Assembly (NCBI RefSeq): GCF_003333315.1
Contig: NZ_PSYR01000004.1
Coordinates: 1 to 32,739 of the forward strand
Reading direction: 5' to 3'
DNA from: Acidiferrobacter thiooxydans
Lineage (GTDB): Bacteria > Pseudomonadota > Gammaproteobacteria > Acidiferrobacterales > Acidiferrobacteraceae
DNA: 32,739 bases
Numbering within the stretch: the stretch's first letter is position 1; each line of letters starts with the position of its first letter. Shown piece by piece: positions 5,333-26,937 of this stretch. Both the position numbers and the translations under genes were made by a program. The notes under the pieces are model-generated. The model did not search any database, was not told the origin of the DNA, and worked only from the letters and a program-made list of their open reading frames with translations.

Positions 5333-5386
5333 GATGCGCCCGCCCGAGGGCCGACAATGCCGCGCGCGATGTGCTCGGATGCCGGC

Positions 5387-7260: not shown

Positions 7261-7292
7261 GACGCCTCCCGAACGAATGCTGCCATTGCCAC

Positions 7293-9476: not shown

Positions 9477-9486
9477 TGCCTCATCC

Positions 9487-10188: not shown

Positions 10189-10276
10189 GATGTCAGCCTC
10201 CTTCTCCGTATGAATCGCCCAACGCCCCGTCCCGGACAGCCCCCCAGGGGCGCCGACCTCAGGCGTTTTTGTGAAT

Positions 10277-13200
10277 CTACGCGCCCGACGAACCCTGCGC
10301 CACGGCCTCACGGTCAAGCTCCTGCAAAAGGCCCTGCAGGGGAATCGCAAGTGCCTGGGGGCGGTTATTCATCTCGTAACGCAGTTCATAAAAGGCCTTC
10401 TCGAGGATGAAGAGCCGCAACCAATCCGCAGCCTCGTCAAAGCCGCCCCAGAGGCTGGTGGCCTCCATAGCCGCGGCATAGGAGGCGATGAACGCCGCGA
10501 CCGTGGCCTGCTCCCAGATGCGGGCGTGAGGCAGTAACGTCGCCCTATGCTCGGATTGCCCGGCGGCGACACGATCAAGCGCCGTATAGAGGGCATAGCT
10601 GAACGACCGTAGCATGCCCGCGACATCGCGTAGCGGTGTATGCTTGCGTCGGCGCTCGTGAAGCGGCCGCCCGGGCTCGCCCTCGAAATCGGTGATCGCG
10701 AAATCGTTTTGCTGGAGCAGGACCTGCCCTAGGTGGTAATCCCCATGGTAGCGGATCTTTTGTCCCACGGTCGGGGCAGCCAGTGCGGCGCGTGCAAGAA
10801 ACGTCTCGCGACCGGCGAGCACGGCCTTGGCGTCATCCTGGACCTCGGGCGGGAGGGCGGCAAGCCGCGCGGAGAGCATATCGAAGGTCTCCTCCATCTC
10901 GGCGCGCACCCCCGCGACCCAGCGCGCACCATCGTCTGGGGTGAGCGGTTCGGGATCGAAGGCCGGATCGCCGTAAGGCGTGGCCAGGGCCTGATGCATC
11001 TGCGCGGTGCGCAAAGCGAGCGTGCGCACGAGCGCGAGATAGCCGCCATGCACCTCCTCACTGCCTCCCGCCGGGGCCGCGCCATGCAGGCACAGTTCGA
11101 GATGGTTGTCGAGATAGTTCAGGGTATAGTCCCAACCATCCCCCTGGTTCTCGACATAGGCCTGGAGCAGCGCAAGCGTGATGACACCACCTGCAGCCGG
11201 CCTATACTCGAGGGTCCCGAGCACCGGCACGGTATGGCGAAAGCCTGCCACGTCGCATAAAAACCGGCCCATCTCGACCTCCGGGTTGATACCCTCCTGC
11301 AATCGCCGATAGCCCTTCAAGAACAACCGCTCGCCGATCGCCACCGCCGTGTTGCTGCTGTGCGTATTGGGATGGCGGACCGCCTCGTCTGCGGCCACCG
11401 GCTGCTCAAGCGTACCCGCCGCCACGCCCTGCACGACGCCGCCCTCACCCGCAAAGGCCAGTCCCTCGCGCATCACAGCGACAAGTCCGCGGCAAAAAGC
11501 GTCGTCGGCAAAGGCATCGCCCAAGATGCCAAGCGTCGCCTGTTGGCGTACGCGCGCCATGGCAAGCGGCAAAACCGTGCGCATGCGCGCCTCGCTATCG
11601 CTCTCCCACAGCAGCGATACCGGCACGAAATAGCGACCCGCGGACGCCCCCTCACTCGATTCCACCACGTCTGCGATCATGAAGAAAAACTGGCCGTCGG
11701 GCCCCGCCCATTCGGCGGTCTCGGTCATGGCGACCCGCTTTGGGACCACGCCCTTCTCGGCATACCAACGCTGCGCCATCACAAAGCGTGGCAAGGCATC
11801 GCGTTCCCACTGCTCACGGACGCGGTCGGCCATGGCCATACGCCACGGCACCACGCGCTCGCGAAACAGGCTGCGCCATCCGTCGAACAGCACGAGCAGC
11901 GGCAGTTCCTCGGGGGTAGGCGCTCCTCGTGCCAGGCCGGAACTTCCCCTCCGGCGGCGAGCCGGAACCAATAGAAGCCATGGCCGTGGAGGGTCAAAAG
12001 ATAGGGCAGGTCACCGATCGGCGGAAACGGCGTCCGACCCATGAGCTCGATCGGCACGCGCCCCTTGTAGGCCGACAGATCGAGCTCCACGGGCTGCGCG
12101 GAGTGCGACAGATTGGCGACACACAGGATCGTCTCATCGCCATAGGTGCGCACATAGGCGAGGATCTTGCGGTTGCCGGGCTCCAGGAACTCAAGCGCGC
12201 CCCGCCCGAACACCTTCGTGCTCTTGCGGATCGCGAGCATGCGCCGCGTCCAATTCAACAAAGACGAGGGGTCGCGCGCCTGCGCCTCGACATTCACCGC
12301 GCCATAACCATAAATGGGGTCCATGATCGGCGGCAAAAACAGGCGTTGCGGGTCAGCGCGCGAGAAGCCGGCGTTGCGGTCCGGGCTCCACTGCATGGGT
12401 GTACGAACACCGTTGCGGTCGCCTAAGTAAATATTGTCACCCATGCCAATCTCGTCGCCGTAGTAGATGATCGGCGATCCTGGCATCGACAAAAGCAGGC
12501 TATTCATGAGCCGGATCTTGTCAAAATCATTGTCCATGAGCGGCGCGAGCCGGCGGCGTATCCCAAGATTGAGGCGCGCCTTCCGGTCGGCAGCGTACAT
12601 CTGGTACATATAGTCACGCTCATTGTTCGTGACCATCTCCAGGGTGAGTTCGTCGTGGTTGCGCAGAAAGATCGCCCATTGGCAGGTCTCGGGGATGTCC
12701 GGCGTCTGCTTCATGATCTCGACGATCGGATGCCGGTCCTCCTGGGCGATGGCCATATACATTCGCGGCATGAGCGGAAAGTGATAGGCCATATGGCACT
12801 CATCCCCCGCGCCGAAGTAGTCGCGCACATCCTCCGGCCACTGATTGGCCTCGGCAAGTAACATACGATTCTCGTAGCGCTGGTCGATCACCGAGCGCAT
12901 GTAGCGCACCACTGCGTGGGTCTCCGGCAGGTTCTCGTTGCTCGTCCCTTCGCGCACGCACAGATAGGGGATGGCGTCGAGCCGCAGGCCGTCGACGCCC
13001 AGGCCGAGCCAAAACTCCATGACCCGCACCACCGCCTTCACGACATGGGGATTGTTGTGGTTCAGGTCCGGCTGATGGAAAAAGAAGCGATGCCAGTAGT
13101 AGGCCTGGGCGACATCATCCCATGCCCAGTTCGACTTCTCGCTGTCTGTGAATATGATGCGCGTATCCTCGAACTTCTTGGCGGTGTCGCTCCACACATA

Positions 13201-13617
13201 GAAGTTGCGCTTGGGTGAACCCGCAGGGGCCTGGCGCGCCGCCTGAAACCAGGGGTGCTGGTCGGAGGTATGGTTTATGACAAGCTCGGTGATGACGCGC
13301 AACCCCCGTTCATGGGCGGCACGCACGAACTGCAGGAAATCGCGACGCGTCCCATAGTCGGGGTGGACATTGCGGTAATCGGCGATGTCATACCCGTCGT
13401 CGTGCATGGGGGACGGATAGAAAGGCAGGACCCACAAGGTATCGACGCCCAGGTCCTGTAGATAATCGAGCTTCTCGGTGAGCCCCGCGAAATCACCGAT
13501 ACCATCGCCATTGCCGTCGAAGAAGGCACGTACATGCAATTCATAGATGACTGCGTCTTTGTACCAGAGCGGATCATTCGAAATCCGCGATTCCTCGCTT
13601 CTTGTTTTTTTGTGCAT
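10277..13617 (-). CDS. treS: Trehalose synthase-maltokinase fusion (TreS-Mak), one frameshift
   Basis: A bifunctional cytosolic protein. TreS interconverts trehalose and maltose, and maltokinase phosphorylates maltose to maltose-1-phosphate, the GlgE donor. The TreS half (residues 1 to about 560) has [30 protein letters not shown] (Asp214), LLAEANQW (Glu256) and FLRNHDEL (Asp322). The C-terminal half has [59 protein letters not shown] (kinase catalytic HGDYHLGQ and Mg-binding DFEGEP) and a helical tail. The halves are in different frames. Adding one C to the CCCCC run at 11912-11916 joins them as [22 protein letters not shown], giving about 1113 residues, the usual length of proteobacterial TreS-Mak fusions. 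Two separate genes are less likely because the linker reads through smoothly. The gene starts 7 bp after the glgE stop. Confidence 0.93.
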
Positions 13618-13624
13618 GGATTAC

Positions 13625-15637
13625 CTAAGAGTAGTAATCGAAGTCGTGCTCGGTGCCGACATAGCTGCGCGGGCGGAATATGTGCGCCGGCATCTGCTCG
13701 GGCGCGAGTTCCACGTAATGGCGACCACCGCTCCACAGATAGCGCGCATCCGACAGGAGATCATGCATCTGCACTGCGCGGTCGTTGCAAGCGCCGGCGA
13801 TTTGTGCCGGCCACTCGAGCCATCCGGACTGACGGTGATAGGGGTCGAGATTCACCACCACGAGAATGACCGAAGCGCCGTCTCCGGAGGTCTTGCTGTA
13901 GGCAATCAGGTTGTCGTTATCGATGGCATGGAACACGAGATGGCAATCGGCCATGAGCGCCGGATGTGCGTGGCGTATAGTGTTGATGCGCGTGATGATC
14001 GCCTGCAGGCTGTCGGGCCGGGCGACATCCCAGTCACGCTGCTCGTACTTCTCGGAGTCCCGGTACTCCTCGCTGCCCGGCTCGCGCGGTACCGATTCCA
14101 TGAGCTCGAAGGCCGGCCCATAGATGCCATAATTGGCGCTCAGGGTCGCGGCCAGCACCAGGCGGGCGATGAACGCCGCGCGCGGCGCGTGTTGCAGGTA
14201 GGGCGGCAGGATGTCAGGGGTGTTCGGCCAGACATGGGGCCGGAAATACTCACGGCCAGGTCCATGCATGAGCTCGGTGAAGTATGCGATCAGTTCGTGC
14301 TTGCTGTTGCGCCACGTGAAATAGGTATACGAATGCGTGAACCCGAGCTTGGCGAGTCTGTGCATCACCTTGGGGCGCGTGAAGGCCTCGGCCAGAAACA
14401 GGACATCGGGGTACTCGGCGCGCACCGCGCCTATGAGCCATTCCCAGAAGGCAAAGGCCTTAGTATGGGGGTTGTCGACCCGGAAGATGCGCACTCCGGC
14501 GTCGATCCAGAACAAGACGATGCCTTTCAATTCCTGCCAAAGGGCTTGCCAGTCCTCGGTCTCGAAGTCCAGTGGGTAGATGTCCTGGTATTTCTTGGGG
14601 GGGTTCTCGGCGTACTGGATGCTACCGTCCGGGCGGTGACGGAACCACTGCGGGTGCTCGGTCACATACGGGTGGTCAGGGGCACACTGAAAGGCGATGT
14701 CGAGCGCGACGGCGAGCCCGAGCCGTTCGGCCTGCGCACAGAATGCCCGGAAATCCGCGAGCGTACCCAGGGTGGGGGCCACGCTCTTGTGGCCACCCTC
14801 AGCGCTGCCGATCGCCCACGGACTGCCGACATCCGCGGGACCGCAGCTTGCGGTATTATTCGGACCCTTGCGGCGCTCCGTCCCGATCGGTGATATCGGT
14901 GGCAAGTACACGACATCGAAACCCATGGCCGCCACATGCGCCAGGATCGGACCGGCATCGCGCAATCGTCCGCCGGCGGACCCCCACCGCGAACGCGGAA
15001 AGAATTCATACCAGGCCGCAGCGCGCGCGCTCTCGGGGTCCACACGCACCGCCAGTTCCTGTCCCCACGCCGTCTCATGCGCGGGTTGCGAAAACCGGTA
15101 GACCCGCTCGACCAGGACCTCGTCTAACAGCGCCGCGCGCTTGTCGGCGGAAGACGCCTGACCCTCGAGCAGCGCCTGTACGACGCGCAACGGACGTGCT
15201 TCACGCGCCGGCGCACGCTCCGCGGCGGCCGCAATCAGGAGTGCAGCCTGCTGAAACACCAGGACCAGATCCGGGTCGTCTGCCGGCCGCCGCGCGAGTT
15301 CCTGGGTAAGCGATCCGAAGCGGTCGATATGGGCGCGTACCGTATAGTGATAGACACCGAGCTCGGCGACCACAAAGCGTCCCTGATAGCGATCATTGCC
15401 AAGCGCTGTCATGCGCGTCGTGCCCACCGTGCGGCCGCCTGGTTTGCGTACGCACAACACACAGGCCACGGCGTCGTGACCATCGGCAAACACATCGGCC
15501 TCCACGATTACGGTGTCGCCGATCACCCGCTTTATGGGGAAGCGCCCGCAGTCGACCACCGGGCTCACCGCCTCGATCACCACCCGATACCGGCCATCGG
15601 CTGGCAGGGGCGGCCCCTTGCCCAGACGCCGCGCCAC
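13625..15637 (-). CDS. glgE: Alpha-1,4-glucan:maltose-1-phosphate maltosyltransferase (GlgE)
   Basis: A GH13 subfamily 3 enzyme that transfers maltosyl units from alpha-maltose-1-phosphate to the non-reducing end of alpha-1,4-glucans. The frame is intact, 670 residues. An N-terminal beta-sandwich begins RYRVVIEAVSPVVDCGRFPIKRV. The barrel has AAWYEFFPRS, DVVYLPPISPIG, GVRIFRVDNPHTKAFAFWEW (nucleophile Asp388), VLFLAEAFTRPKVM (acid/base Glu417) and the GlgE-specific ENPPKKYQDIYPLDFE loop. The likely start is GTG at 15637, 3 bp after the glgB stop, which suggests translational coupling. Its product feeds GlgB upstream and its donor comes from the TreS-Mak gene downstream, the standard GlgE pathway arrangement. 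Confidence 0.96.
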   Translation of the reverse strand: MARRLGKGPPLPADGRYRVVIEAVSPVVDCGRFPIKRVIGDTVIVEADVFADGHDAVACVLCVRKPGGRTVGTTRMTALGNDRYQGRFVVAELGVYHYTVRAHIDRFGSLTQELARRPADDPDLVLVFQQAALLIAAAAERAPAREARPLRVVQALLEGQASSADKRAALLDEVLVERVYRFSQPAHETAWGQELAVRVDPESARAAAWYEFFPRSRWGSAGGRLRDAGPILAHVAAMGFDVVYLPPISPIGTERRKGPNNTASCGPADVGSPWAIGSAEGGHKSVAPTLGTLADFRAFCAQAERLGLAVALDIAFQCAPDHPYVTEHPQWFRHRPDGSIQYAENPPKKYQDIYPLDFETEDWQALWQELKGIVLFWIDAGVRIFRVDNPHTKAFAFWEWLIGAVRAEYPDVLFLAEAFTRPKVMHRLAKLGFTHSYTYFTWRNSKHELIAYFTELMHGPGREYFRPHVWPNTPDILPPYLQHAPRAAFIARLVLAATLSANYGIYGPAFELMESVPREPGSEEYRDSEKYEQRDWDVARPDSLQAIITRINTIRHAHPALMADCHLVFHAIDNDNLIAYSKTSGDGASVILVVVNLDPYHRQSGWLEWPAQIAGACNDRAVQMHDLLSDARYLWSGGRHYVELAPEQMPAHIFRPRSYVGTEHDFDYYS

Positions 15638-15640
15638 GGC

Positions 15641-17586
15641 CTAGTTACCCGACCCCGGCCGTGGTGGGGCCTTGAACACGAGTACCGCAAGGGGCGGCAA
15701 CACGAGATTCAGGGACTGCAACGCGCCGTGCGCGGCTACCGGGGCGGTGGCAAGCCCCCCGAGGTTGCCCTGCCCACTGCCGCCGTAGATCGTGGCATCG
15801 GTGTTCAGGATCTCCTGCCAGAGCCCTGGCCACATCACCCCCAGGCGGTAGTTGTGGCGCGGCAGGGGCGTAAAATTGGCGACTACCAGCAACGGCTCGG
15901 CGGCGGGCTCGGCGAAGCGGTAGAAACTGATGACGCTCTGCTCCCAGTCCCCGGTGTCCAGCCACCGGAAGCCTGCGGGCTCGGTGTCGGCCCGGTGCAA
16001 CGCCGGCTCCCCGCGGTACAGGGTGTTCAGATCACGTACCAGACGCTGGATGCCGCGGTGCGGCTCATAATCGAGAAGATGCCAGTCGAGGCTGTCTTCG
16101 TGGGCCCACTCCCGCCACTGGGCGAACTCCGCCCCCATGAACAGCAGCTTTTTGCCGGGGTGACAGAACATGTAGGCAAACAGTACGCGCAGATTGGCGA
16201 ATCGCTGCCAGTCATCGCCCGGCATCTTGGCAATCAGCGAGCGTTTGCCATAGACCACCTCGTCATGGGAAAGCGGCAGCACGAAGTTTTCCTGAAAGGC
16301 GTACCACAGGCTGAACGTAAGCTGCCCCTGGTGGTGCTTGCGGTAGACGGGGTCCTTTTCCATGTAATCGAGCGTGTCGTGCATCCAGCCCATATTCCAT
16401 TTATAGCCAAACCCGAGCCCCCGGCATAGACCGGCCGTGACACCTGGGGCCAGGCGGTAGACTCCTCGGCTATGGTCTGCGTGTCGGGATAATGCCGGTA
16501 CACAGCCTCGTTCAGCTCCTGCAAAAACTGGATCGCCTCCTCGTTCTCCCGGCCACCGTGGGCATTCGGGATCCACTCCCCCGGCGCGCGCGCATAATCG
16601 CGATACAGCATGGAGGCCACGCCATCGACGCGCAGACCGTCTATGTGAAACCTGTCGAGCCAGTAAAGCGCACTCGAGACCAATATCGAGCGCACCTCGT
16701 GGCGGCCATAGTTGAATAGGCTCGAGTGCCATTCCGGATGATAGCCGCGCCGCGGGTCGGCATGCTCGAAAAGATGCGTGCCGTCGAAAAACCCGAGGCC
16801 GTGAAGATCCGTCGGAAAGTGCGACGGCACCCAGTCGAGGATCACGCCGATACCCTGGCAATGCAGGGCATCTATGAGGTACATGAGGTCCTCGGGCGCG
16901 CCAAAACGCGCGGTGGGCGCGAAATACCCCGTAGTCTGATAGCCCCATGAACCATAGAAAGGATGTTCGGTAAGCGGCATGAATTCGACATGGGTAAAGC
17001 CCATGTCCGCGACATAGGACGGCAATATCGAAGCCAGTTCGCGGTAACTGAGCCAGCGCCCGCCCTGCTCGGGCACGCGCCGCCAGGATCCGGCATGCAT
17101 CTCGTAGATGCTCACCGGCGCGGTCAGCGCCATGCGCTCGCCGCGTCTTGCCATCCACGCCGCATCCTGCCAGGCATAACTGCCATCGCATACCACCGAC
17201 GCCGTACGCGGCGGCAGCTCACCACGAAATGCGAACGGGTCGGCCTTCTCCACTTCATAGCCGCTGTCACGCGCGACGATGTGATATTTATAGAGCGCCC
17301 CGGGACTGATCCCGGCGATGAACCCCGCCCACAGACCCGATCCATCGTCGCGGACCTTGAGCGGATGGGCATCCTTTCGCCACCCGTTAAAATCGCCGAT
17401 TACTGACACCGATTGCGCATTGGGCGCCCATACCGCGAAATGCACACCGGTATCGGCCGCGACTCGTACCGGGTGCGCGCCGAGCTTCTCGTAGAGCCGC
17501 ACATGCCGCCCCTCGCGGAAGAGATAGATATCCTCCGGACTAAACCATGCGTCCGTACTGCCGCTCGCCGCCCTGCCGCCTGGCAT
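15641..17586 (-). CDS. glgB: 1,4-alpha-glucan branching enzyme (GlgB), one frameshift
   Basis: A GH13 subfamily 9 enzyme that makes alpha-1,6 branches in glycogen. It has an N-terminal CBM48-type domain ([31 protein letters not shown]) and a barrel with [42 protein letters not shown] (nucleophile Asp about 321) and [10 protein letters not shown] (acid/base Glu about 374). After VYAGG the frame breaks. One extra G in the GGGGG run (16418-16422 on the + strand) restores [20 protein letters not shown] and the rest, [16 protein letters not shown] and [12 protein letters not shown]. The ATG at 17586 is chosen for the ribosome site AAGGGAGGG; the frame stays open to 17742 without a ribosome site there. 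About 648 residues, a short-N-terminus type. It is the first gene of the leftward operon. Confidence 0.93.
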
Positions 17587-17959
17587 GCACTGCCCTCCCT
17601 TGCCGAAGTCCGCGCGCCCGGAACGCACAATCTGCACCATTTCTCCGGTCATGTTACGGGCCATGCCCGTCCATGACAAGTAGCGAAACGTCCGCAGCCC
17701 ATCCCCCTCAGGGCCGGTAAGCATCATCTTTTCGATGCCCATAGGATGGTCATGAGCACCAGGGCGGGTCGGTCCGAGATGCGGTCGCCGTCAGGCACAA
17801 GACGCGCACAGACGCGGTGATCGGTATTTATGCACCAAGCCGGGTCCGCCAAAGGCGCCTGCCATCGGCGACAGTTGTATGATACGAGTGCGATATTTCG
17901 TGTCCGCGCAAGCGCTAAGCTTCTTGTCGCGTTACACGGTTAAGGGCCATGCGCCACCT
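17587..17959. other. Gene-free control region between glgB and the insertion element
   Basis: No convincing gene lies here. Before the element inserted, this region plus 20532-20594 would have formed a divergent intergenic space of about 450 bp between glgB (left) and glgP (right). It should contain the promoter of the leftward operon. Reading leftward, a TTTGGC about 15 bp from CATAAA near 17830-17850 is the only sigma-70-like pair I noticed, and it is weak. An imperfect palindrome, GCCAC-CT-GTGGC, lies at 17953-17964 and overlaps the target duplication. Confidence 0.5.
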
Positions 17960-17969
17960 GTGGCATAAT
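17960..17969. repeat. Target site duplication, left copy
   Basis: GTGGCATAAT directly abuts the left inverted repeat and is repeated exactly at 20522-20531 next to the right one. A 10-bp duplication is within the 9-12 bp range of IS4-family elements. Confidence 0.93.
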
Positions 17970-18144
17970 CTTTCTATTGCACACATCTTTGGCGATTTTC
18001 TCTGATTGTTTGACGCGCCTAACGAAAGTGCTGGACACACGCGCCGAGATTGCGTAAGGTGGCGGTTGTCGCGGCGTGCGACAAGGACAGGCGGACGGCG
18101 TGCAAAAGTCGAGGCGTTGTGGGGATCCGGATGTGCGGGCGATC

Positions 18145-19586
18145 ATGGAGGCCGGCACAGAGTCGGTCGAGTGGGTGAGACAAGAGTTTGCCCGCGCCGA
18201 CCTCTCCGATAAACGCCTGGATCGTCGCTTGGTGAAAACTGCGGAATATCTCGCCCAATCTCCCGGCTCGCCGATCAATGAAGCGTGCGGCAATTGGGCC
18301 AGTACGCAAGCGGCGTATCGGCTGTTCAATAATGCCAAGGCGAGCGCGGCGGGGATCCTCAAACCCCATTGGGAAGCGACGGCCGCGCGCATGGCCGGCT
18401 GCGGGGGTGCGGTGCTGGTGATGCAGGACACGGTCTTCTTCTCCTACGGCCGGCACGTCAGGACTCGGGGCCTCGGACCGATTGGCAAGAGCAACGCCGC
18501 GCATGACCGGGGCCTCATCATGCATAACGCACTGGCCTTCACCACCTCGGGCGTGCCGCTCGGGATCGTGAGCCAAAGCATCTGGGCGCGCGGGGAGATC
18601 CCGGAGGAAGACTATCAGGAGAAGATCGAGCGCCTGCAGGTCACGGCGATCGAGGAAAAAGAGAGCGCGAAATGGCTTATTGCGCTCAAAGAGACGGTCG
18701 AGCGGGCGCCCGCGGGCGTGCCGGTCGTCACCGTGGCCGACCGCGAATCGGACTTCTTCGAGTTCTTGACACGCGCCCAGGACCTGCAGGCGCACTATCT
18801 CATCCGCGCGCGCACCGACCGCAAGCTCGTGCCCGAAGACAGCGCGGGCTGCACGCGGATGCTCGAGGCGTTGAGCGATGCCCCGGCATGGGGGAGCATG
18901 ACGATTGAGGTTCCTGGCAACGGCAGTCGTAAGGCGCGCACGGCGGCGATCGAGGTGCGCACAGCCGAGGTCACGATCCAGCCCCCACCGCGCCGTGGGG
19001 CGGCCCAGACGTCCGGCTCCAGCGAGCCTGTGACCGTCACCCTGATCGGGGCGACCGAGTCGTCCCCGCCGGCCGGGGTGGAGCCGATCAGCTGGGTGTT
19101 GCTCACAAATCTCATCGTCAAAGACTTCGCGTCCGCCACCGAGAAGGTGCGGTGGTATGGGCGGCGCTGGGGCATCGAGATCTGGCATAAGGTGCTCAAA
19201 TCCGGCTGCAAGGTCGAGGACTGCCTGCTCGAGGAGGCCTTGCGCCTCAAGCGCTATCTGACGCTTTTCAGCATCATCGGCGTGCGCCTGATGCATGTGA
19301 CCTACCTGGCCCGCGCGCACCCGGATCGGCCGGCCACCGAGGTGTTCTCCGAGGAGGAGGTCGAAGCGCTGCATATCCGCGTCACGCGGGCATTGCCCCC
19401 GCAGGTCCTGCCCCGACGCTGCGCGACATGGTGCGCATGCTGGGCCGGCTCGGCGGCCACTTGGGCCGCAAGGGGGATGGCGAACCCGGCGTCACCGTGC
19501 TCTGGCGCGGCTGGACGAGTCTTTACGAGACGGTCGAGACACTGCGTGCCCATAAACATGTCCTCAGCCCGCGCGACTCGAGCTGA
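18145..19586 (+). CDS. tnp: IS4-family Tn5-type DDE transposase, one 3' frameshift
   Basis: A cut-and-paste transposase. The N-terminal region (VEWVRQEFARADLSDKRLDRRLVK, WASTQAAYRLFNN) is the Tn5-type DNA-binding domain. The catalytic residues, numbered from the ATG at 18145, are Asp95 (VMQDTVFFSYGRH), Asp199 (VADRESDFFEF) and Glu345 in a Y-x2-R-x3-E-x6-K signature (YGRRWGIEIWHKVLK). Tn5 has D97, D188 and E326. After RALPP the frame breaks at a CCCCC run (19396-19400). One added C restores TLRDMVRMLGRLGGHLGRKGDGEPGV and LWRGWTSLYETVETLR, the conserved dimerisation tail, and the stop at 19586. A GTG at 18076 is an alternative start. About 480 residues. If the frameshift is real, the copy is inactive. 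Confidence 0.92.
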
Positions 19587-19589
19587 ACG

Positions 19590-20444
19590 ATGCGCTACTG
19601 CGGACGAGAGTTTACACCAGCCGAGATCGCGCTGATCCGCGAGTGGCTCACGACCCCCCAGATGAACCGTGCTCGTTTATCCCGGGAAGTCTGTGAGAGG
19701 CTCGGATGGCGCCGGGAAAATGGCGCTCTGAAGGATATGAGCTGTCGCGTGGCCCTCAACCGCATGCACGCCGATGGGCTGATCACACTGCCCCCGCCGC
19801 GCAACCCCAAGCCCGTCACCTACCGGTCCTATCCGGACATCGAACAGGCGGTTTGCGAACCCGCCGTCATCCCGGCCATCGATCTCGCTACGCTCACCAT
19901 TGATCCGGTCCTCGGCAGAGCCGAATCGCGGCTGTGGAACGCCTATATCGAACGCCACCACTACCTCGGGCATACCCTCATGCCCGGGGCGCAACTGCGC
20001 TACTTCGTACGCGCCCAAGGCCAGATCGTCGCGGCCCTGGGCTTCGGGGCCAGCGCCTGGAAGGTCAAGCCCCGCGATCAGGCCATCGGCTGGACGGTCG
20101 ATCAGCGGCAACGCAATCTGCACCTGATCGTCAACAATGCCCGTTTCCTTATTCTGCCGTGGATCCATTGCCCAAACTTGGCCTCACGGATCCTGGCCTT
20201 GGTCAGCCGCCGACTCCCCGACGACTGGCACGCCCGCTACAGCTATCGCCCGGTTCTGCTCGAAACCTTCGTCGAGAAGCCGCGCTTTACCGGTACCTGC
20301 TACAAGGCGGCCAACTGGCAAAACCTTGGGGATACTCAAGGGCGCGGTAAGCTCGACGTCTTGCATCGCCACGCAAAGCCCGTCAAAAGTATCTGGATCT
20401 ATCCGCTCGTGCGGGACTTTCGCCGGCATCTCTGCAACGCATAA
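19590..20444 (+). CDS. DUF4338 / DruA-like protein, transposon cargo
   Basis: An intact 284-residue protein of the DUF4338 (PF14236) family, the family of DruA from the Druantia anti-phage system. The N-terminal part (about 1-70: FTPAEIALIREWL, NRARLSREVCERLGW, ALNRMHADGLITLPPP) looks like a winged-helix DNA-binding module. The core carries conserved blocks RHHYLGHTLMPGAQLRYFV, ALGFGASAWKVKPRDQAIGW, RNLHLIVNNARFLILPWI, NLASRILALV, PVLLETFV, FTGTCYKAANWQNLG and TQGRGKLD, ending in KSIWIYPLVRDFRRHL. Its ATG lies 3 bp after the transposase stop, so the two are almost certainly co-expressed and moved together. No Druantia helicase (DruE) or other Dru gene is nearby. It could be a transposition accessory factor, a defence or exclusion factor, or a selfish passenger; the sequence does not decide. 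Confidence 0.88.
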   Translation: MRYCGREFTPAEIALIREWLTTPQMNRARLSREVCERLGWRRENGALKDMSCRVALNRMHADGLITLPPPRNPKPVTYRSYPDIEQAVCEPAVIPAIDLATLTIDPVLGRAESRLWNAYIERHHYLGHTLMPGAQLRYFVRAQGQIVAALGFGASAWKVKPRDQAIGWTVDQRQRNLHLIVNNARFLILPWIHCPNLASRILALVSRRLPDDWHARYSYRPVLLETFVEKPRFTGTCYKAANWQNLGDTQGRGKLDVLHRHAKPVKSIWIYPLVRDFRRHLCNA

Positions 20445-20493
20445 GACAGGCCATTCGATTACCTATCGATATTCATCGATGCCTCATGCTTTG

Positions 20494-20538
20494 TTGACAG
20501 AAAGATGTGTGTAATAGAAAGGTGGCATAATACCTGCA
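20494..20538 (+). promoter_or_regulatory. Candidate sigma-54 promoter of glgP, next to the element's right end
   Basis: TGGCATAATACCTGCA (20523-20538) has the invariant GG and GC of sigma-54 promoters separated by exactly 10 bp, a near-consensus -24 (TGGCAT for TGGCAC) and a good -12 (CTGCA for TTGCA). It ends 56 bp before the glgP start. The right copy of the target duplication forms its first half, so the promoter core survives although everything upstream is now the insertion element. A consensus -35 hexamer TTGACA (20494-20499) faces outward just inside the element, but no -10 lies 16-18 bp away. Confidence 0.5.
20522..20531. repeat. Target site duplication, right copy
   Basis: GTGGCATAAT immediately follows the right inverted repeat and is identical to 17960-17969. 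Outside the two copies the flanks differ (CACCT on the left, ACCTG on the right), as expected for a target duplication. Confidence 0.93.
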
Positions 20539-20594: not shown

Positions 20595-23150
20595 GTGCCC
20601 GGTACCCGTTATCCCCTGGAAGTCCAGCCGCTCATTCCGCAAAGATTGGCGCGCCTCACAGAGCTCGCAGCTGACCTTCTCTACAGCTGGAACCGATCCA
20701 TCCGCGCGCTGTTCGTGCGCCTCGACCCGAGACTCTGGGAGCAGTGCGGGCGCAACCCCAAACTCATGCTGCGCCGTGTCGCGCAATCGCGGCTCGACGA
20801 GGCCGCGGCGGATCCGCTGTTTCTGGAGGAGTATCAGCGCGCCCTGTCCATATACGACACCTACCACGCCGTGCGCCTGTCCTCCAAACGGACGGACATC
20901 GACCCGCGGACCGATCTTGTCGCCTACTTTTGCGCCGAATTCGGTCTCCACGAGAGCCTGCAGATCTACTCCGGCGGCCTTGGCATACTGGCCGGCGACC
21001 ACTGCAAGGCGGCAAGCGACCTGGGCCTCCCGTTCGTCGCCGTGGGTCTCCTGTACCGGCAGGGGTACTTCACCCAGACCATAGACGCGCAGGGTAACCA
21101 GATCGTCGGCACCGCGCCGGCCTTGCTCGCTGATCTCCCGGTGACGCCGGTGTGCGACCATGAGGGGCATGAGCTGCGGGTGTCGGTCACCCTTCCCGGG
21201 GGCCTTGTGGCACTTAAGGTGTGGCGCGTGGCGGCCGGGCGCATCCGCCTCTATCTGCTCGACAGCGATGTCCCAGAAAACACTAGCGCCGACCGTGGCA
21301 TCACCTGCCAACTCTACGGTGGCGACCGCGACACCCGGTTGCGTCAGGAGATCGTCCTGGGCATAGGCGGCGTACGCGCGCTGCGCGCGTTGGGTCTTGC
21401 GCCCACCGTCTGGCATATCAACGAGGGCCACCCCGCCTTCCAGATCATAGAGCGTATCCGCGAACTCACGACCCAAGGCCAGGATTTCGACAGCGCCATG
21501 GAGGTCGTGGCGGCCGGCACGGTGTTCACCACCCATACACCCGTACCTGCCGGCCATGACATCTTCGACCAGGAACTGTTCGGGCGCTACCTCGAACCCT
21601 ATGTCGCCGATCTTGGGATCACCCTGGATGAACTGAAGTCTTTGGGATCGAGCCCTATAAGTCAGGGTGGATTCAACATGACCGCCTTCGCCCTGCGCGC
21701 ATCGCGTCTGCACAATGGCGTAAGTCGCATCCACGGCGGGGTCGCCTCGCGTATGGAGGCCTACGTCTGGCCGCAGATCCCATGGATGGAAAACCCCGTC
21801 GGGTATGTGACCAACGGCGTGCATGTGGCAACCTTTCTTGCCCACGAATGGAGCAGCTTGTTCGACGTACGCTTTGGCAGCGAGTGGCGCAACAAGCTCA
21901 CCGAGGCCGACTACTGGGCGCGCATCGACACCATTCCTGACCACAGCTACTGGAGCGTCCACCAGTCCCTGAAGGGCGCGATGCTGGAGGCTGTACAAAA
22001 GCGCGTCACCCGCCAACATCGGCGGAACGGGGCAGGTGAGGGCGTGATCCGGCGACTTACGCGGCAACTGGAGCCCGACGCCAAGACACCGCTTGTCATA
22101 GGCTTTGCGCGGCGCTTTGCGACCTACAAACGCGCCGGCCTGCTGTTCGAGGACCCCAAGCGGCTCGCGCGCCTTTTGAACGACCCAGATCGGCCGGTGC
22201 TGCTGCTCTTTGCCGGCAAGGCCCACCCTCATGACCACCCGGGTCAAAACCTGATCCGCCTGATCCACGAGTTCTCACGCAGCCCGGAATTCGAGGGCAA
22301 GGTTATCCTGATCGAGGGCTACGATCTCGCGCTCGCGCGAAGGCTCGTGACCGGCGTCGATGTCTGGCTGAACACCCCGGAGTATCCCCTGGAGGCGAGC
22401 GGCACATCGGGACAAAAGGCTGCCATCAACGGCGTCGTGAATCTGAGCGTCCTTGATGGCTGGTGGGGTGAAGGCTATGCCGGCGACAACGGTTGGGGCA
22501 TCTGTCCGCACAAGGGTCCGATCGACAACGATCAGCGCACCCGAGAGGAGAGCGCGGAGGTGCTGGATATCCTGGAGCAGCAGGTCGTGCCTCTCTATTT
22601 CAATGCCGCCGAGCACGGCTATTCCCGATCGTGGATCGCCATGTCCAAAGCGGCGATGCGGCGCGCCATGCCGGTCTTCAATGCCGAACGCATGGTGCTC
22701 GAATACGCGCGCGACTATTATCGCAAGGCCGCCGGCCATGCGCGGCAGCTGGCGGCCGACGAGGCCGCGGGAGGGCGCGCGCTGGCACGCTGGAAGCGGC
22801 AGGTGAGCAGCGCCTGGAGCGGGGTGCGTCTCGAGCGCGGCCAGGACATCCCTGAAGCGGTCAAGGTTGGCGAATCCCTGCACCTTACGGTACTCGTCCA
22901 CGGCAACGGCCTGCGCCCGGACGACCTCATCGTCGAATGCCTGTTCGAGTCCAGCGACGACCTAGGCGAGGTGCTGCTCCGCGATCAGGCGCCGTTCGTG
23001 GCAGACGGCGTCGATGGCGAGGGGCGCCTCGTCTTTCGTCTCGACCACGAGCCCCGGACATCGGGATTCCAGACGCTTCGTATCCGCGCCTACCCCTACC
23101 ACGCCCTGCTCGCCCATCGTTTCGAGCTCGGCTGCATGGTGTGGTTATAG
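20595..23150 (+). CDS. glgP: Alpha-glucan phosphorylase (GlgP, short/thermophilic-type subgroup)
   Basis: A PLP-dependent enzyme that releases glucose-1-phosphate from alpha-1,4-glucan ends. The 851-residue intact frame belongs to the distant phosphorylase subgroup with an N-terminal DUF3417 (LAADLLYSWNRSIRALFVRLDPRLWE), seen in thermophilic and many environmental bacteria, not the E. coli GlgP/MalP type. Conserved blocks are VAYFCAEFGLHESLQIYSGGLGILAGDH, WHINEGHPAF, TVFTTHTPVPAGHD, YVTNGVHVATFL, IGFARRFATYKRAGLL and the PLP region EASGTSGQKAAINGVVNLSVLDGWWGEGY with Lys608. The start is GTG at 20595 after AAAAGG. It faces away from the glgB operon, was probably divergently expressed with it, and ends at a hairpin shared with the converging regulator gene. 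It provides the degradative arm of the glucan cycle. Confidence 0.93.
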   Translation: MPGTRYPLEVQPLIPQRLARLTELAADLLYSWNRSIRALFVRLDPRLWEQCGRNPKLMLRRVAQSRLDEAAADPLFLEEYQRALSIYDTYHAVRLSSKRTDIDPRTDLVAYFCAEFGLHESLQIYSGGLGILAGDHCKAASDLGLPFVAVGLLYRQGYFTQTIDAQGNQIVGTAPALLADLPVTPVCDHEGHELRVSVTLPGGLVALKVWRVAAGRIRLYLLDSDVPENTSADRGITCQLYGGDRDTRLRQEIVLGIGGVRALRALGLAPTVWHINEGHPAFQIIERIRELTTQGQDFDSAMEVVAAGTVFTTHTPVPAGHDIFDQELFGRYLEPYVADLGITLDELKSLGSSPISQGGFNMTAFALRASRLHNGVSRIHGGVASRMEAYVWPQIPWMENPVGYVTNGVHVATFLAHEWSSLFDVRFGSEWRNKLTEADYWARIDTIPDHSYWSVHQSLKGAMLEAVQKRVTRQHRRNGAGEGVIRRLTRQLEPDAKTPLVIGFARRFATYKRAGLLFEDPKRLARLLNDPDRPVLLLFAGKAHPHDHPGQNLIRLIHEFSRSPEFEGKVILIEGYDLALARRLVTGVDVWLNTPEYPLEASGTSGQKAAINGVVNLSVLDGWWGEGYAGDNGWGICPHKGPIDNDQRTREESAEVLDILEQQVVPLYFNAAEHGYSRSWIAMSKAAMRRAMPVFNAERMVLEYARDYYRKAAGHARQLAADEAAGGRALARWKRQVSSAWSGVRLERGQDIPEAVKVGESLHLTVLVHGNGLRPDDLIVECLFESSDDLGEVLLRDQAPFVADGVDGEGRLVFRLDHEPRTSGFQTLRIRAYPYHALLAHRFELGCMVWL

Positions 23151-23170
23151 TCGCCGGCGTGATCGGCCCA

Positions 23171-23209
23171 CCTGCATCCCCGGTTTGGAACCGCCGGGGA
23201 TGGGGCAGG
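23171..23209. terminator. Bidirectional hairpin between converging glgP and sigma-54 activator genes
   Basis: ATCCCCGG and CCGGGGAT form an 8-bp stem around a loop of about 10 bases. Flanking CCTGC and GCAGG can extend it past a GGG bulge. It lies 21 bp after the glgP stop and 13 bp beyond the opposing stop. There is no long T tract on either side, so intrinsic termination is plausible but not certain. Confidence 0.5.
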
Positions 23210-23221
23210 CGTGTATCCCGG

Positions 23222-24580
23222 TCACGATGGCGTAAGCCAGCGATAGAGCGTGCGTCGCTCGATCCCGAGGATACGCGCCGCCGCCCGCTTATTGCCACGC
23301 ACCCGCCGCAGGACCTCGTGCACGTAGGCGCGCTTGCATTCCTCCAGGGTCACGAGATCGCTCGTGCCGGCCTGGTCGGGGGGCGTGGCGCACGCCACCG
23401 GACCCTGCGCCCGACCATCGGGACGACACACGCGCTCGGGCAGATCCCAGACACCGATGCGCGGGCCACGCGCAAACGCCGCCGCCGACTGGACGATGTT
23501 GCGAAGCTCGCGGACATTGCCCGGGAAGGCATAGCCGTGCAGCACATGCAAGGCCTCGGTCTCGAAACCGTCTACGGCACTACCCATCTCCGTATGGCAC
23601 GCGCGCAGGAAGTGCCGCGCCAAGACTGTGATGTCATCACATCGACCGGCGAGGCCCGGCAGGCTCACAGTCAGCACATCAAGGCGATACAAGAGGTCAT
23701 CGCGAAAACGCCCGCGCGCGGCCGCCAGCGCCAGGTTTCGGTGGGTGGCGGCGACGATACGCACATCCACCTGATGCTCGCGCACCGCCCCCACCGGCCG
23801 CATCCACCCGCCCTCGAGGGCGCGCAGAAGCTTGGCCTGGGCAACCAGGGGCATCTCCCCGATCTCGTCTAGAAACAAGGTCCCACCGTGGGCTGCGGCA
23901 AACAGCCCCTCGCGGCTGCGATTCGCGCCGCTGAAGGCCCCGGCGGTATAACCGAAAAATTCGCTCTCCCACAAAGACTCGGGTACCCCTCCGCAATTGA
24001 CGGCTACGAAGGGGCCCTTGCGGCGCGCACTCTCACCATGGATCGCGCGTGCCGCAAGCTCCTTGCCGGTGCCGCTCGGCCCACTCAGCAGTACCGGCAC
24101 ATCGACACGCGCGGCGCGTACCAGGCGCTCGATCAGCGCCCGCATATCCGTGCCACATCCGAGCATTCCGTGAAACCGCAGGACGTCCGGTACGGGCGGC
24201 GACGATCGACGCGCGCCGGCCGCAGACAAGCCCAGCGCCTCGTGGGCCTGGACAACGGCCGCCGGCAGGGCGGCACCCTCGGCACGACGCGGGCCCCCGT
24301 CGTGCCCATCGCCCGCAACCGGCGCCGCGGGCCGCGGCGACAGCATCATGAACGCCGGTGGCCTTGCCGCGGCGCGTATCCCCGCACACAAGGCCATGCT
24401 GCCGACCTCCCATGGCAGGCCGCTCACCACCAGATCCGCCGGCCAGCGCGGCAGGAGCGCCAAGGCATCATGGGCGCTCGCCGCCGTCTGCACCACGGCG
24501 CCGGCGTCCGACAGTCCCTGCTCTAGCTGCGTACGCGCGATATCACTCTCATCCACTATCAGGATCTTTGATCCTTGCAT
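23222..24580 (-). CDS. Sigma-54-dependent Fis-family activator with degenerate receiver domain
   Basis: An NtrC-type enhancer-binding protein of 452 residues. The N-terminal receiver-like domain (KILIVDESDIARTQLEQGL...ADLVVSGLPW) has Gly54 where the phospho-accepting Asp belongs, and the conserved Lys is not recognisable, so canonical phosphorylation is unlikely. The AAA+ domain is complete: Walker A GPSGTGKE (167-174), the sigma-54 contact loop GAFSGA (214-219, Ser for the usual Thr), Walker B GGTLFLDEIGEMP and FRDDLLYRLDVL. The C-terminus is a Fis-type helix-turn-helix (GNKRAAARILGIERRTLYRWL). The ATG at 24580 follows GGGGGGAGGAGG. No sensor kinase gene is in the window. It lies between two candidate sigma-54 promoters, at glgP and at the divergent small gene, which are its obvious targets. 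Confidence 0.9.
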   Translation of the reverse strand: MQGSKILIVDESDIARTQLEQGLSDAGAVVQTAASAHDALALLPRWPADLVVSGLPWEVGSMALCAGIRAAARPPAFMMLSPRPAAPVAGDGHDGGPRRAEGAALPAAVVQAHEALGLSAAGARRSSPPVPDVLRFHGMLGCGTDMRALIERLVRAARVDVPVLLSGPSGTGKELAARAIHGESARRKGPFVAVNCGGVPESLWESEFFGYTAGAFSGANRSREGLFAAAHGGTLFLDEIGEMPLVAQAKLLRALEGGWMRPVGAVREHQVDVRIVAATHRNLALAAARGRFRDDLLYRLDVLTVSLPGLAGRCDDITVLARHFLRACHTEMGSAVDGFETEALHVLHGYAFPGNVRELRNIVQSAAAFARGPRIGVWDLPERVCRPDGRAQGPVACATPPDQAGTSDLVTLEECKRAYVHEVLRRVRGNKRAAARILGIERRTLYRWLTPS

Positions 24581-24643
24581 GCCTCCTCCCCCCTGGCACC
24601 ACGCCCACGACCTGTGGCATGACGCCTCTGTATTACCGCCTCA

Positions 24644-24660
24644 TGTGTCGTTTCGACACA
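24644..24660. promoter_or_regulatory. Perfect 17-bp palindrome, candidate activator-binding site
   Basis: TGTGTCG-TTT-CGACACA has 7-bp perfect arms. It lies about 100 bp upstream of the sigma-54 promoter at 24759 and 64 bp upstream of the divergent activator gene, the usual distance for an enhancer site bound by a Fis-type dimer. A partial second copy, GTGTCG-N7-CGAC, occurs at 24675-24691. Confidence 0.55.
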
Positions 24661-24758
24661 GGCGCGCACCGAAAGTGTCGCGCTCGGCGACCACCGCGCA
24701 CCCGCGTCCCGGCGCACAACCGCGCCCCTCACCCCGCAGACGGCGGCAGACGGGGCGG

Positions 24759-24775
24759 CTGGCACGGGCATTGCA
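24759..24775 (+). promoter_or_regulatory. Sigma-54 promoter
   Basis: CTGGCACGGGCATTGCA matches the sigma-54 consensus YTGGCACG-N4-TTGCW at every defined position. Transcription would start near 24787, giving a leader of about 28 bases before the small secreted gene at 24815. Confidence 0.88.
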
Positions 24776-24814
24776 CTCCCTGGGCGAGCCAATCAATCGA
24801 GGAAAGACATCACG

Positions 24815-25213
24815 ATGGAGTCATCCCGAACCGCCCTGCGCCTCGCCCTGACGACCGCGATCACACTCGCCTCCGCAAGCGCGTTTGCCGCCACCCAGGC
24901 GCCCGCTGCCGCCACCGCGCATATGCCGCCGCCGGGGGCCACGGCCATGCCGCGCATCGGCCACACGACCCTGAAACACTTCGTGACCGCCATTCGTCAT
25001 GTCTCGCAGATCCGCGCCGCCTACGCCAAAAAGTTGCAGGCGATGAAGGGGCAGCCGGGCGCGGCCCGCGGGATCCAGGTGCGCGCGCAGCAGTCCATGA
25101 TCGCCGCCATCAAGGGGCAGCACCTCACTCTGCCGCAATACAACAACCTCGTCCGGCAGGTCGACGCCGACCCCACACTGCGGGCCCGCGTGCTGCACAT
25201 GCTGCGCCAGTAG
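24815..25213 (+). CDS. Small secreted protein, DUF4168-like
   Basis: A 132-residue protein with a clear Sec signal peptide (RTALRLALTTAITLASASAFA, cleavage near residue 25), so it is periplasmic or exported. The mature part is Ala/Pro-rich to about 45, then helical: LKHFVTAIRHVSQIRAAYAKKLQ, QSMIAAIKGQHLTLPQYNNLVRQVDADPTLRARVLHML. This layout (a helix with V-x2-I-x3-Y, then an I-x10-LT-x2-YN-x10-D-x2-L-x2-R block) resembles DUF4168 proteins, whose function is unknown. GAGGAAAG 7 bp before the ATG is the ribosome site. It has its own sigma-54 promoter and a strong terminator, so it is a single-gene unit, probably controlled by the divergent activator. Confidence 0.8.
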   Translation: MESSRTALRLALTTAITLASASAFAATQAPAAATAHMPPPGATAMPRIGHTTLKHFVTAIRHVSQIRAAYAKKLQAMKGQPGAARGIQVRAQQSMIAAIKGQHLTLPQYNNLVRQVDADPTLRARVLHMLRQ

Positions 25214-25217
25214 TCAC

Positions 25218-25256
25218 AAGGCCGTGGCGCCCCACGGGCGCCACGGCCCTTCTTTC
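25218..25256 (+). terminator. Strong intrinsic terminator of the small secreted gene
   Basis: A 12-bp perfect GC-rich stem, GGCCGTGGCGCC (25220-25231) and GGCGCCACGGCC (25237-25248) with a 5-base loop, begins 6 bp after the stop and is followed by CTTCTTTC. Flanking AA/TT can extend the stem. Confidence 0.85.
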
Positions 25257-25320
25257 CTATCTTTTTGCCCGCGCCGCGTCCCAGCAACAGTTGCGTGCGC
25301 GCGACCCATGCCGGCTGCCT

Positions 25321-26511
25321 CTAATCCGATGAGGCGGAGACCCCGGTCCGGCGCACCGTCACCCCCTCTCCCAAGGCCCGCGCCATGCGCGCGGCCGGTC
25401 GCTCCAGCCAGCGGTAGGCCATATCGGCCGTCAATAGCGTGGCCACGAAGGTGCCCGCCAGCAAGGGCGCGAGAGCGATATGTCCATAGAACAAATGGAG
25501 CGCCGCGAGAAGCACGAGCGGGTGAAAGAGGTAGAGACTGTAGGATATGCGCCCGAGATACTGGAAGACGCGGTGGTCGAGCAGCGCCTTGACGGCGGGT
25601 TCATAGGCGATCACCACGAGTCCCAGGGCGGCCCCCATCATGGTCGGCCAGTCGTGGACCAACATGCGGTGATCGCCGAGCACAGCCAGGGTGCGCGATC
25701 CGTAAAAATAGAGCGCGAAGGCCAGCACCCCAAGGATGAGTCGCCGTCCCGATGATAGCGTAAGATAACGCCTCTTCACCGCATCCCTGTGACAGGCGAG
25801 CAGGGCGCCCAACGCAAACGGCGCGAGATAATAGACCGTATCGCTATAGGCGGTAAGCCCTCCGCCCATGACCGTCGCCGCCCACGCCCCGCCCGCAGCC
25901 GATGCCGCGCCGCGCACGAAGATAGTCGCGACGGCCAGGGCCGCAAAGGGCAGCCAGGCCACGGTCCACGCCGACCGCCTCACCCACACGACGATCAGCG
26001 GAAAGATGAGCGAGACCCGCATCTCCTGCACGAGCGTCCAGATCGTGAAGTCGTAGCGATCCGAATTGAAGGCATCCACGAAACCGGCGTGCTCCCAGAG
26101 TGAGCTTACATTCGGCGACCAGGACCAGAACTTGTTGATCCACGGGCCCAGCCCCGGCAACGGTCCGGTATACAGGAAGGCGGCGCCCAGGATGCCGAGA
26201 ATCACCGCCCCGGCGTAGGGCAGATAAAGGCGCACGACGCGCTTTTTGAGATAGGCGCCATAGCTCAGACCGCCACGCTCCCACATGATGTAGAGCACAT
26301 AGCCGCTCAATACAAAGAAAAAGACCACCGCCGCGCGGCCCGCCCAGGCCAGTCCAAGCGGGGTATAAGACAGCCATTGCAGGGTATGATAAGCGTGCGC
26401 ATAGCGGCGTCGGCCGGCATCGGCCAGGACCAGCACATAGTGCGACAAGACCACCGACACGGCCGCGAGTCCGCGCGTGGCATCCAGTGATCTGACCCGC
26501 CCATCCGCCAA
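25321..26511 (-). CDS. Acyltransferase-3 family (OafA/YrhL-type) membrane protein
   Basis: A polytopic inner-membrane acyltransferase of 396 residues with about ten TM segments. The family signature is at the N-terminus: RSLDATRGLAAVSVVLSHYV, including the conserved Arg and catalytic-type His. Other typical blocks are FFFVLSGYVLYIMWER, YLKKRVVRLYLPYAGAV, the late FQYLGRISYSLYLFHPLVLL and a final RWLERPAARMAR. Such enzymes acetylate or acylate surface polysaccharide, lipopolysaccharide, peptidoglycan or small glycans; the substrate cannot be read from sequence. The best start is TTG at 26511 after GGGGGA, because the signature begins only a few residues later. It is transcribed alone, and no glycan-export genes flank it. 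Confidence 0.88.
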   Translation of the reverse strand: MADGRVRSLDATRGLAAVSVVLSHYVLVLADAGRRRYAHAYHTLQWLSYTPLGLAWAGRAAVVFFFVLSGYVLYIMWERGGLSYGAYLKKRVVRLYLPYAGAVILGILGAAFLYTGPLPGLGPWINKFWSWSPNVSSLWEHAGFVDAFNSDRYDFTIWTLVQEMRVSLIFPLIVVWVRRSAWTVAWLPFAALAVATIFVRGAASAAGGAWAATVMGGGLTAYSDTVYYLAPFALGALLACHRDAVKRRYLTLSSGRRLILGVLAFALYFYGSRTLAVLGDHRMLVHDWPTMMGAALGLVVIAYEPAVKALLDHRVFQYLGRISYSLYLFHPLVLLAALHLFYGHIALAPLLAGTFVATLLTADMAYRWLERPAARMARALGEGVTVRRTGVSASSD

Positions 26512-26937
26512 CGCAGTCCCCCGTGCCCCAACGCCACGCCCGCCCCTTGCCGACGCCTACCTCTGTGTAGAGGGCCGTAGACCTCAGCAGTTCCCGTCGT
26601 ACGCCGATCAATCCGGCACCGTAGGTGGTGGGTAACAGGTACGGCCTGGGTGCGATGCGCCACGATCATGGCGCTGCGACCGACATCCTTCCCCTCGGTG
26701 GGCATCGCCATCGACCCTGAGGTACCCATCGGCGCAGGCCCCGACCCCCTATTCGACCGCTCGCTGCAACGGGGGTTGATCTGCTACGACGGGCGATGTT
26801 TGTGCGCAAGGGGCCCCAGCATTGATGCCGGAGAGGGAGGGTGTCGATCGCGAGGCGATCACCGTCCCCTGGTTGATCCATGGGGCGCAATCGTCGCTGA
26901 GTACCACAATATTATTGATTATTAATTCTATAAAACA
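26512..26937. other. Gene-free interval with an AT-rich tract
   Basis: No reading frame on either strand resembles a known protein. The last 34 bases (about 26905-26938), just after the malQ stop, are almost entirely A and T (including ATTATTGATTATTAATTC), in sharp contrast to the GC-rich surroundings. I found no hairpin for a malQ terminator and no convincing promoter pair. Confidence 0.5.

Follow-up and report, generated by a model that had tools for sequence, protein, structure and literature searches.

The window analysed here, 32,739 nucleotides making up the whole of one 32.7-kb contig (NZ_PSYR01000004.1) of the 3.25-Mb, four-contig genome of Acidiferrobacter thiooxydans (G000), carries at positions 17970-20521 a clean two-gene insertion sequence (IS), which belongs to the Tn5 (IS50) group and is flanked by a target duplication of 10 bp. 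The transposase gene and the gene behind it move as one unit, and relatives of this second gene are found again and again next to transposases of several families, or joined to them as fusions. That the C-terminal domain of the second protein has the GNAT fold of Mom from phage Mu, together with Mom's key residues, is well supported by structure models and profile alignments. There are about even chances that the element combines an IS50-group transposase with a Mom-like, acyltransferase-like modifier of DNA bases that is coupled to transposition, DNA modification being the putative part. Passenger genes as such are known; the recurrence of one Mom-like gene over several IS families, and its fusion to their transposases, appear to be new in the light of the literature searched.

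Two genes moving as one unit

The 21-bp terminal inverted repeats (17970-17990 and 20501-20521) agree at 20 of 21 positions, and the duplicated target, GTGGCATAAT, is exact on both flanks; it occurs twice in the whole window, where 0.02 occurrences are expected. Both exact ends are found at nine places in the source genome. Two of these have common flanks at contig ends and count as one locus, and therefore eight distinct copies were taken, 2552-2553 bp in length. Six of the eight have their own duplication of 9-10 bp (9 bp in four, 10 bp in two), and the remaining two hold each other's duplicated bases (swapped pairs of 8 and 9 bp). These two copies lie about 560 kb apart in opposite orientation (C2:171750-174302 on the forward strand, C2:733812-736364 on the reverse strand), and the swapped duplications point to a 560-kb inversion by recombination between them. 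Another of the eight copies (L025, C2:781864-787855) is interrupted by another element carrying two genes, which we take to be an IS21-type pair.

The flank of the insertion is also found at 100% identity without the element in contigs C3 and C2, with one GTGGCATAAT each, giving two empty sites. On either side this identity extends over no less than 1.1 kb, and in C3 it reaches 5.0 kb on the right. The site is likewise empty, at about 91% identity, in G005, a complete genome of the same genus. The empty sites, together with the mispaired controls described below (0/273), rule out chance repeats as an explanation. The repeats, the duplication and the joint movement of the two genes had all been claimed in an initial annotation of this DNA, and the copies and empty sites bear them out. 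Note that the flank 17000-17969 recurs at C3:14034-15003 and C2:241021-241990, and in G005 at C1:1168874 and 1184370. The region seems to be amplified or repeated, since the flank occurs three times at 100% in the source genome and twice in G005.

The transposase has the Pfam domains Tnp_DNA_bind, DDE_Tnp_1 and Dimer_Tnp_Tn5 and is assigned to the IS4 family by NCBIfam. Its homology to Tn5 transposase spans residues 7-473 (E 8.9e-33), with D, D and E aligned; these are presumably the catalytic residues of the Tn5 enzyme. The Tn5-type assignment stands. In the window copy the last part of the transposase gene is no longer in frame, owing to a length difference of one base in the run of C near 19396-19400; six sister copies encode all 480 aa without stops. 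The second gene begins 3 bases past the transposase stop, as initially annotated (the spacer is ACG in sister copy L002), and encodes an identical 284-aa protein in seven of the eight distinct copies.

According to the table in PMC2266710, the IS50 subgroup is marked by a Y-(2)-R-(3)-E-(6)-K signature, an end consensus, duplications of 8-9 bp and a size of 1350-1550 bp. The element resembles this subgroup in its Tn5 transposase homology, in the exact signature (YGRRWGIEIWHKVLK in P0001) and in its ends, where the consensus CW------Y---CA-A--W- is matched at 7/7 positions on both sides. The six sister copies show no frameshift within the 480-aa transposase frame, a criterion of the IS4 family. 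The duplications of the element, about 9 bp (9-10 bp), overlap in part with the 8-9 bp of the table. It differs in its 2552-2553 bp against a typical 1350-1550 bp, which is a typical range and no rule of exclusion. The greater length is due to the second gene.

An extra gene that lies inside the terminal repeats and moves with the element is also found in other insertion sequences, such as the transporter IS. Passenger genes are described for IS231 elements as well (PMC2266710). While the cargo of such elements varies, here one gene family is found across several IS families, sitting close to the transposase and in places fused to it. These fusions and the co-inheritance of the two genes argue against a passenger gene without a part in transposition.

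Similarity of the second gene to Mom of phage Mu

An AlphaFold model of the second protein, built from an alignment of 56 relatives (A2), has a mean pLDDT of 86.9. When it is compared with the PDB by Foldseek, phage Mu Mom (8bv8) ranks first of 780 matches (E 2e-6). VIA-align superposes Mom on model residues 99-283 over 164 residues (Z 15.0, rmsd 3.4; next best structure Z 13.0), and a Mom protein ranks third among viral structure models. By sequence, a profile of ten phage Mom proteins aligns with A2 in hhalign at a probability of 94 (E 8.5e-8), and 38 of the 56 members match the Pfam Mom model at E<=1, the best at 8.2e-6. Searches of PDB sequences found no relative with phmmer, and the best match of the gene profile (E 0.22) is unrelated.

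In the profile alignment Ser199 faces Ser114 of Mu Mom, which is replaced by Ala in the inactive mutant that was crystallised. Ser199 is present in all 89 non-redundant IS-type genes (defined below), as is Arg185; His124 and Tyr238 are found in 88/89 and Asn242 in 86/89. The second protein therefore shares with Mom of phage Mu and with Mom-like phage proteins the fold, the order of motifs, the inactivating serine, and His, Arg, Tyr and Asn. It differs from them in its 15% identity in the fold alignment, in an extra N-terminal domain, in a location in insertion sequences and rarely in viral contigs, and in scores below the Pfam Mom cut-off. In the part of PMC7824862 concerned with them, Mom-family GNAT enzymes are described as modifiers of adenine.

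Relationship to DruA of Druantia

The second gene is a member of PF14236 (DUF4338) at 153 bits (cut-off 27), but the match is limited to positions 49-225 of the 297 in the profile; no NCBIfam model exists for the gene. Its assignment to the DruA family in the initial annotation holds as far as membership of PF14236 goes. Judged by sequence comparison, it is not DruA of Druantia. It scores 17.2 bits across 80 residues against the PADLOC DruA model, while four canonical DruAs, which match PF14236 in full length, score 268-701 bits. In a quick tree, which is unrooted and carries a warning of long branches, a branch with a support of 100 and a length of about 10 changes per column parts these four from the full set of 89 IS-type genes. 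At the positions of the Ser, Arg and His of the Mom site, which the IS-type genes keep, all four carry Gly, Val (Thr in one) and Trp. The alignment of the two types has one single-residue gap between Arg162 and Ser199, adjoining the serine. Just three replaced residues are claimed because Tyr238 and Asn242 are less safely aligned in the canonical DruAs.

DruA of Druantia type I (PADLOC PDLC00002) and the second protein have Pfam family PF14236 and the RD and T-G-G positions in common. DruA is longer (about 400 aa against 284 aa) and is accompanied by Dru partner genes, whereas the element holds two genes only and no Dru partner gene is among them, as the initial annotation had stated (no search for DruE was made in the rest of the genome). 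The weak PADLOC score, the replaced residues and the lack of a partner gene inside the element rule out a functional Druantia unit. DruA is given as a protein of unknown function in a table of PMC7251935, and a passage of PMC10853773 already assigns DUF4338, in fusion with DndF, to the GNAT superfamily. Three open frames of 702-1297 aa (L190, L191 and L197 in G061, G130 and G096) contain part of a PF14236 domain and resemble neither the IS type nor the short DruA.

Recurrence across insertion sequence families

Scanning species of bacteria and archaea yielded 566 confirmed relatives of the second gene, and the best 80, from many phyla, were taken further. In 69 of these 80 loci a transposase of the modelled families lies within 600 bases on the same strand, as judged by transposase profiles trained on the same loci. 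Five more (L109, L113, L155, L161 and L164) have a transposase or integrase core named by Pfam alongside. Out of 164 matching loci, 132 have at least 170 residues and no stop, and 89 non-redundant genes were kept from these; some loci are one place retrieved twice (L089 and L100). A modelled transposase within 600 bases on the same strand, or a Pfam-named transposase-like neighbour, accompanies 79 of the 89 genes, which is not an unbiased rate because the 80 best of 566 loci were chosen by likeness to IS-type genes. The partners are IS66 (47), IS4 (14), ISAs1 (7), a second element described below (4), other DDE_Tnp_1 transposases (4) and single cases of DDE_5, rve and UPF0236; ten genes have none. 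UPF0236 is presumably a transposase-like family, and the protein of this family that adjoins the gene in L183 (G196) is a possible further IS partner.

Of 91 loci, 49 have the gene pair bracketed by inverted repeats with a duplication of 8-12 bp; none of 273 controls, made by mispairing left and right flanks from different loci, does. A second element, which has other ends (CAGCAATTCT...) and 9-bp duplications, is present in four copies in the source genome and has a relative of the gene in the same place. Neither Pfam nor NCBIfam gives a name to its transposase; ISNCY is our presumed label, unconfirmed by either. G005 has 32 matches to the gene, some fragmentary or split. The elements that hold them are IS66-like, ISAs1-like, of the second type or IS4-like, and several are multi-copy. 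Of the 19 loci in Candidatus Accumulibacter (ACC003), 18 are delimited copies of IS66 type, each with an 8-bp duplication.

The IS66-type element L065 (2740 bp) may serve as an example, with a repeat at -1799, the TnpC frame from -1763 to -9 and the right end 90 bases past the domain. Together with L114, L116, L117, L119, L122-L139 without L128, L151 and L163, it belongs to a set of delimited IS66-type elements of 2.6-3.0 kb that are nearly filled by TnpC and the gene. TnpA and TnpB seem to be absent from these elements, judged by the space left, with no profile search made for them.

In the quick tree the window gene falls in a clade of ten (support 99), all linked to IS4, and the tree requires nine switches of transposase family over five families. 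Among the papers listed from the literature searched, which included few subscription journals and did not cover ISfinder, none was seen to describe this gene inside insertion sequences.

Fusions, selection and co-inheritance

In-frame fusions of the domain to transposases are found in three families: DruA-IS4 in L092 (794 aa) and L185 (679 aa), IS66-DruA in L173 (827 aa) with a remnant in L179, and seven non-redundant fusions to the N-terminal part of ISAs1 transposases. In four ISAs1-type loci with the fused domain (L077, L086, L098 and L099), a conserved GCCCAAAAAAAGT run, at the same place in three genomes, is shortly followed by the end of the first frame, and the -1 frame continues the ISAs1 transposase. 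From the arrangement of the two frames, this looks like programmed -1 frameshifting. On plasmid pTs417 of Candidatus Thiodictyon (L252:3028-4362), a DruA-like domain overlaps a gene annotated only as an ISAs1 family transposase.

Purifying selection on the second gene is supported by dN/dS ratios of 0.125-0.218, next to 0.083-0.240 for the IS4 transposase. The distances of gene and transposase correlate in the IS66 set (r 0.944, reached in 0 of 2000 permutations; n=32, near-copies included), so that the gene clearly follows its partner there.

The initial annotation had also suggested an ancestral role of the family in transposition, from which a defence system recruited it. A standing tie of IS-type PF14236 genes to transposition is supported by their presence in several IS families, purifying selection, co-evolution with the transposase (clear for IS66, weak for IS4) and fusions to three kinds of transposase. 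The order of events, transposition first and defence later, is not readable from the tree because it is unrooted and quick and has a branch of about 10 changes.

Distribution of the gene

In 60 related genomes searched from the transposase side, all 11 near-full-length close or fused homologues carry the gene, eight of them being the copies of the source genome; remnants are left out of the count, as is one copy truncated at the end of a contig. In G012 there is a decayed remnant, and its matching pieces stop short of the gene; G013 says nothing on the gene because a contig end cuts the element before the gene would begin. A wider search took Tn5-like transposases at E<=1e-20 in a 398-genome phylum sample, with few candidates per genome scored. 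There the gene adjoins such a transposase in only 2 of 18 other genomes (G208 and G183), which rules it out as a constant part of Tn5-like elements. The expectation that homologous elements keep the gene thus holds for close homologues and fails at the level of phyla. Being sparse among distant Tn5-like elements, the gene marks certain element clades, and the group as a whole can do without it.

Detectable relatives of the gene are absent from all 50,697 phage records and occur in 2 of 72,556 plasmid records and in four loci in viral contigs; the search of viral contigs gave no relative of the transposase.

Possible function and alternative explanations

If the second protein is a Mom-like enzyme, it would be an acyltransferase-like enzyme modifying DNA bases, most likely adenine. 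The N-terminal domain or the transposase would bring it to the element's ends or to the donor or target DNA. The mark could raise the success of the element by shielding the moving DNA, excised or newly joined, from nucleases; alternatively, it could tell element copies or ends apart, old copies from new. The function would be accessory rather than core, since most distant Tn5-like elements are without the gene. There are precedents: host Dam methylation draws such distinctions for Tn5 and Tn10 and gates their transposition, and fungal transposons carry TET/JBP base-modifying genes. The present findings suggest that some elements mark DNA as part of how they move. A wider proposal, with somewhat less than even chances, is that at least four IS families have repeatedly allied with a single Mom-like enzyme for DNA hypermodification, whose chemical marks, set in cis, would protect transposition or steer it, and that DruA of Druantia is a derived and possibly non-catalytic relative.

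Several results weigh against DNA modification coupled to transposition. On the side of the enzyme, the pTM of the model is moderate (0.67) and the N-terminal domain gives weak fold matches (best Z 5.0). A single Mom sequence reaches only E 0.053 against the A2 profile, and none of the 60 genomes, the source genome included, has a match above the gathering cut-off of the Pfam Mom model (PF25680). As many as 98 PDB chains match the model at E<=0.001, mostly GNAT enzymes among the matches listed, and the fold therefore also fits acylation of proteins or small molecules. On the side of the association, ten of the 89 genes are without an identified transposase nearby, the phylum-level count of 2/18 is low, and 638 plasmid records match the transposase (all below 60% identity) against two with the gene. 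The dN/dS ratios are rough because many dS values exceed 1, and the test of co-inheritance is weak in the IS4 set (r 0.969, reached in 145 of 2000 permutations, n=5). In one of the eight distinct copies (C2:237346) the second gene is broken, the frame stopping after 24 codons. Since this fault and the one in the window transposase are both single-base length differences, they may be young mutations or assembly errors.

The many protein acetyltransferases among the PDB matches listed, together with the close coupling and natural fusions of gene and transposase, would fit a GNAT domain that acylates its partner transposase or a host factor, tuning activity and leaving DNA unmodified; a host factor as substrate would also explain how one gene type serves different transposases. 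This is unlikely, as Mom with its key residues kept is the best match of all, and a shared protein substrate is made less likely by partner transposases of different families. Equally unlikely is a non-enzymatic helper, an accessory subunit that binds DNA or transposase and whose GNAT pocket is a relic. Classical IS66 elements need TnpA and TnpB, and the delimited TnpC-first IS66 elements nearly filled by TnpC and the gene (e.g., L065) speak for such a helper, as do the N-terminal helices, which resemble a helix-turn-helix without a firm fold match. However, near-invariance of the Mom-site Ser, Arg, His, Tyr and Asn over many phyla is unexpected for a dead pocket, and canonical DruA displays what replacement of such residues looks like.

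A cargo for defence or exclusion of rivals, guarding the host against phages or other elements and riding as a passenger, is more doubtful still. It draws on the distant kinship with Druantia DruA through PF14236 and on the GNAT domain annotated as DUF4338 in fusions to DndF defence proteins (PMC10853773, in the passage cited above). On the other hand, neither druE nor any other Dru gene fits inside the element, the PADLOC score is 17 bits, the gene lies inside repeat-bounded elements of several families and is fused to their transposases, and relatives are as rare in phage records, plasmid records and viral contigs as given above. Very improbable is a gene that plays no part in the life cycle of the element and came along by chance when the copies recently multiplied. 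The aligned copies are near-identical and hence young, and one of eight has the gene broken, but dN/dS below 0.25, co-inheritance in the IS66 set, association with several families and the fusions already contradict it.

If the Mom-like reading is true, some bacterial transposons bring their own DNA-base modification enzyme as a way to control or shield transposition, and DruA gains a likely fold, an ancestry and a prediction of lost catalysis. Since PF14236 is named as a defence family, its IS-borne members are easily mistaken for orphan defence genes or absorbed into transposase names.

Features of the element and its surroundings

The coordinates of the element are collected in Table 1.

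Table 1. Features of the two-gene insertion sequence, in positions of the window
Feature	Position	Strand	Basis
Target duplication, left copy, 10 bp, GTGGCATAAT	17960..17969	.	Sequence; single copy at two empty sites
Terminal inverted repeat, left, CTTTCTATTGCACACATCTTT	17970..17990	+	Sequence; fits published IS50-subgroup end consensus at 7/7 positions
IS4-family (IS50/Tn5 group) transposase gene	18145..19586	+	Domains, Tn5 alignment; frame broken late in this copy
IS-borne DruA/Mom-like gene, 284 aa	19590..20444	+	PF14236, 153 bits; same protein in 7/8 distinct copies
N-terminal domain, residues 1-97, three helices, perhaps helix-turn-helix DNA-binding	19590..19880	+	Structure models; fold matches weak
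Predicted C-terminal Mom-like GNAT-fold domain, residues 99-284	19884..20441	+	Model, Foldseek, VIA-align, profile alignment
Ser199 codon; faces serine whose change to Ala inactivates phage Mu Mom	20184..20186	+	Profile alignment, residue conservation
Terminal inverted repeat, right, CTTTCTATTACACACATCTTT	20501..20521	-	Sequence; end consensus 7/7
Target duplication, right copy, 10 bp, GTGGCATAAT	20522..20531	.	Sequence

The insertion lies within a cluster of glycogen and maltose pathway genes (3138-17191 and 20595-28428; 10 frames scanned). The domains of this cluster are those of alpha-amylase-family proteins, GlgE, maltogenic amylase, carbohydrate phosphorylase and 4-alpha-glucanotransferase.

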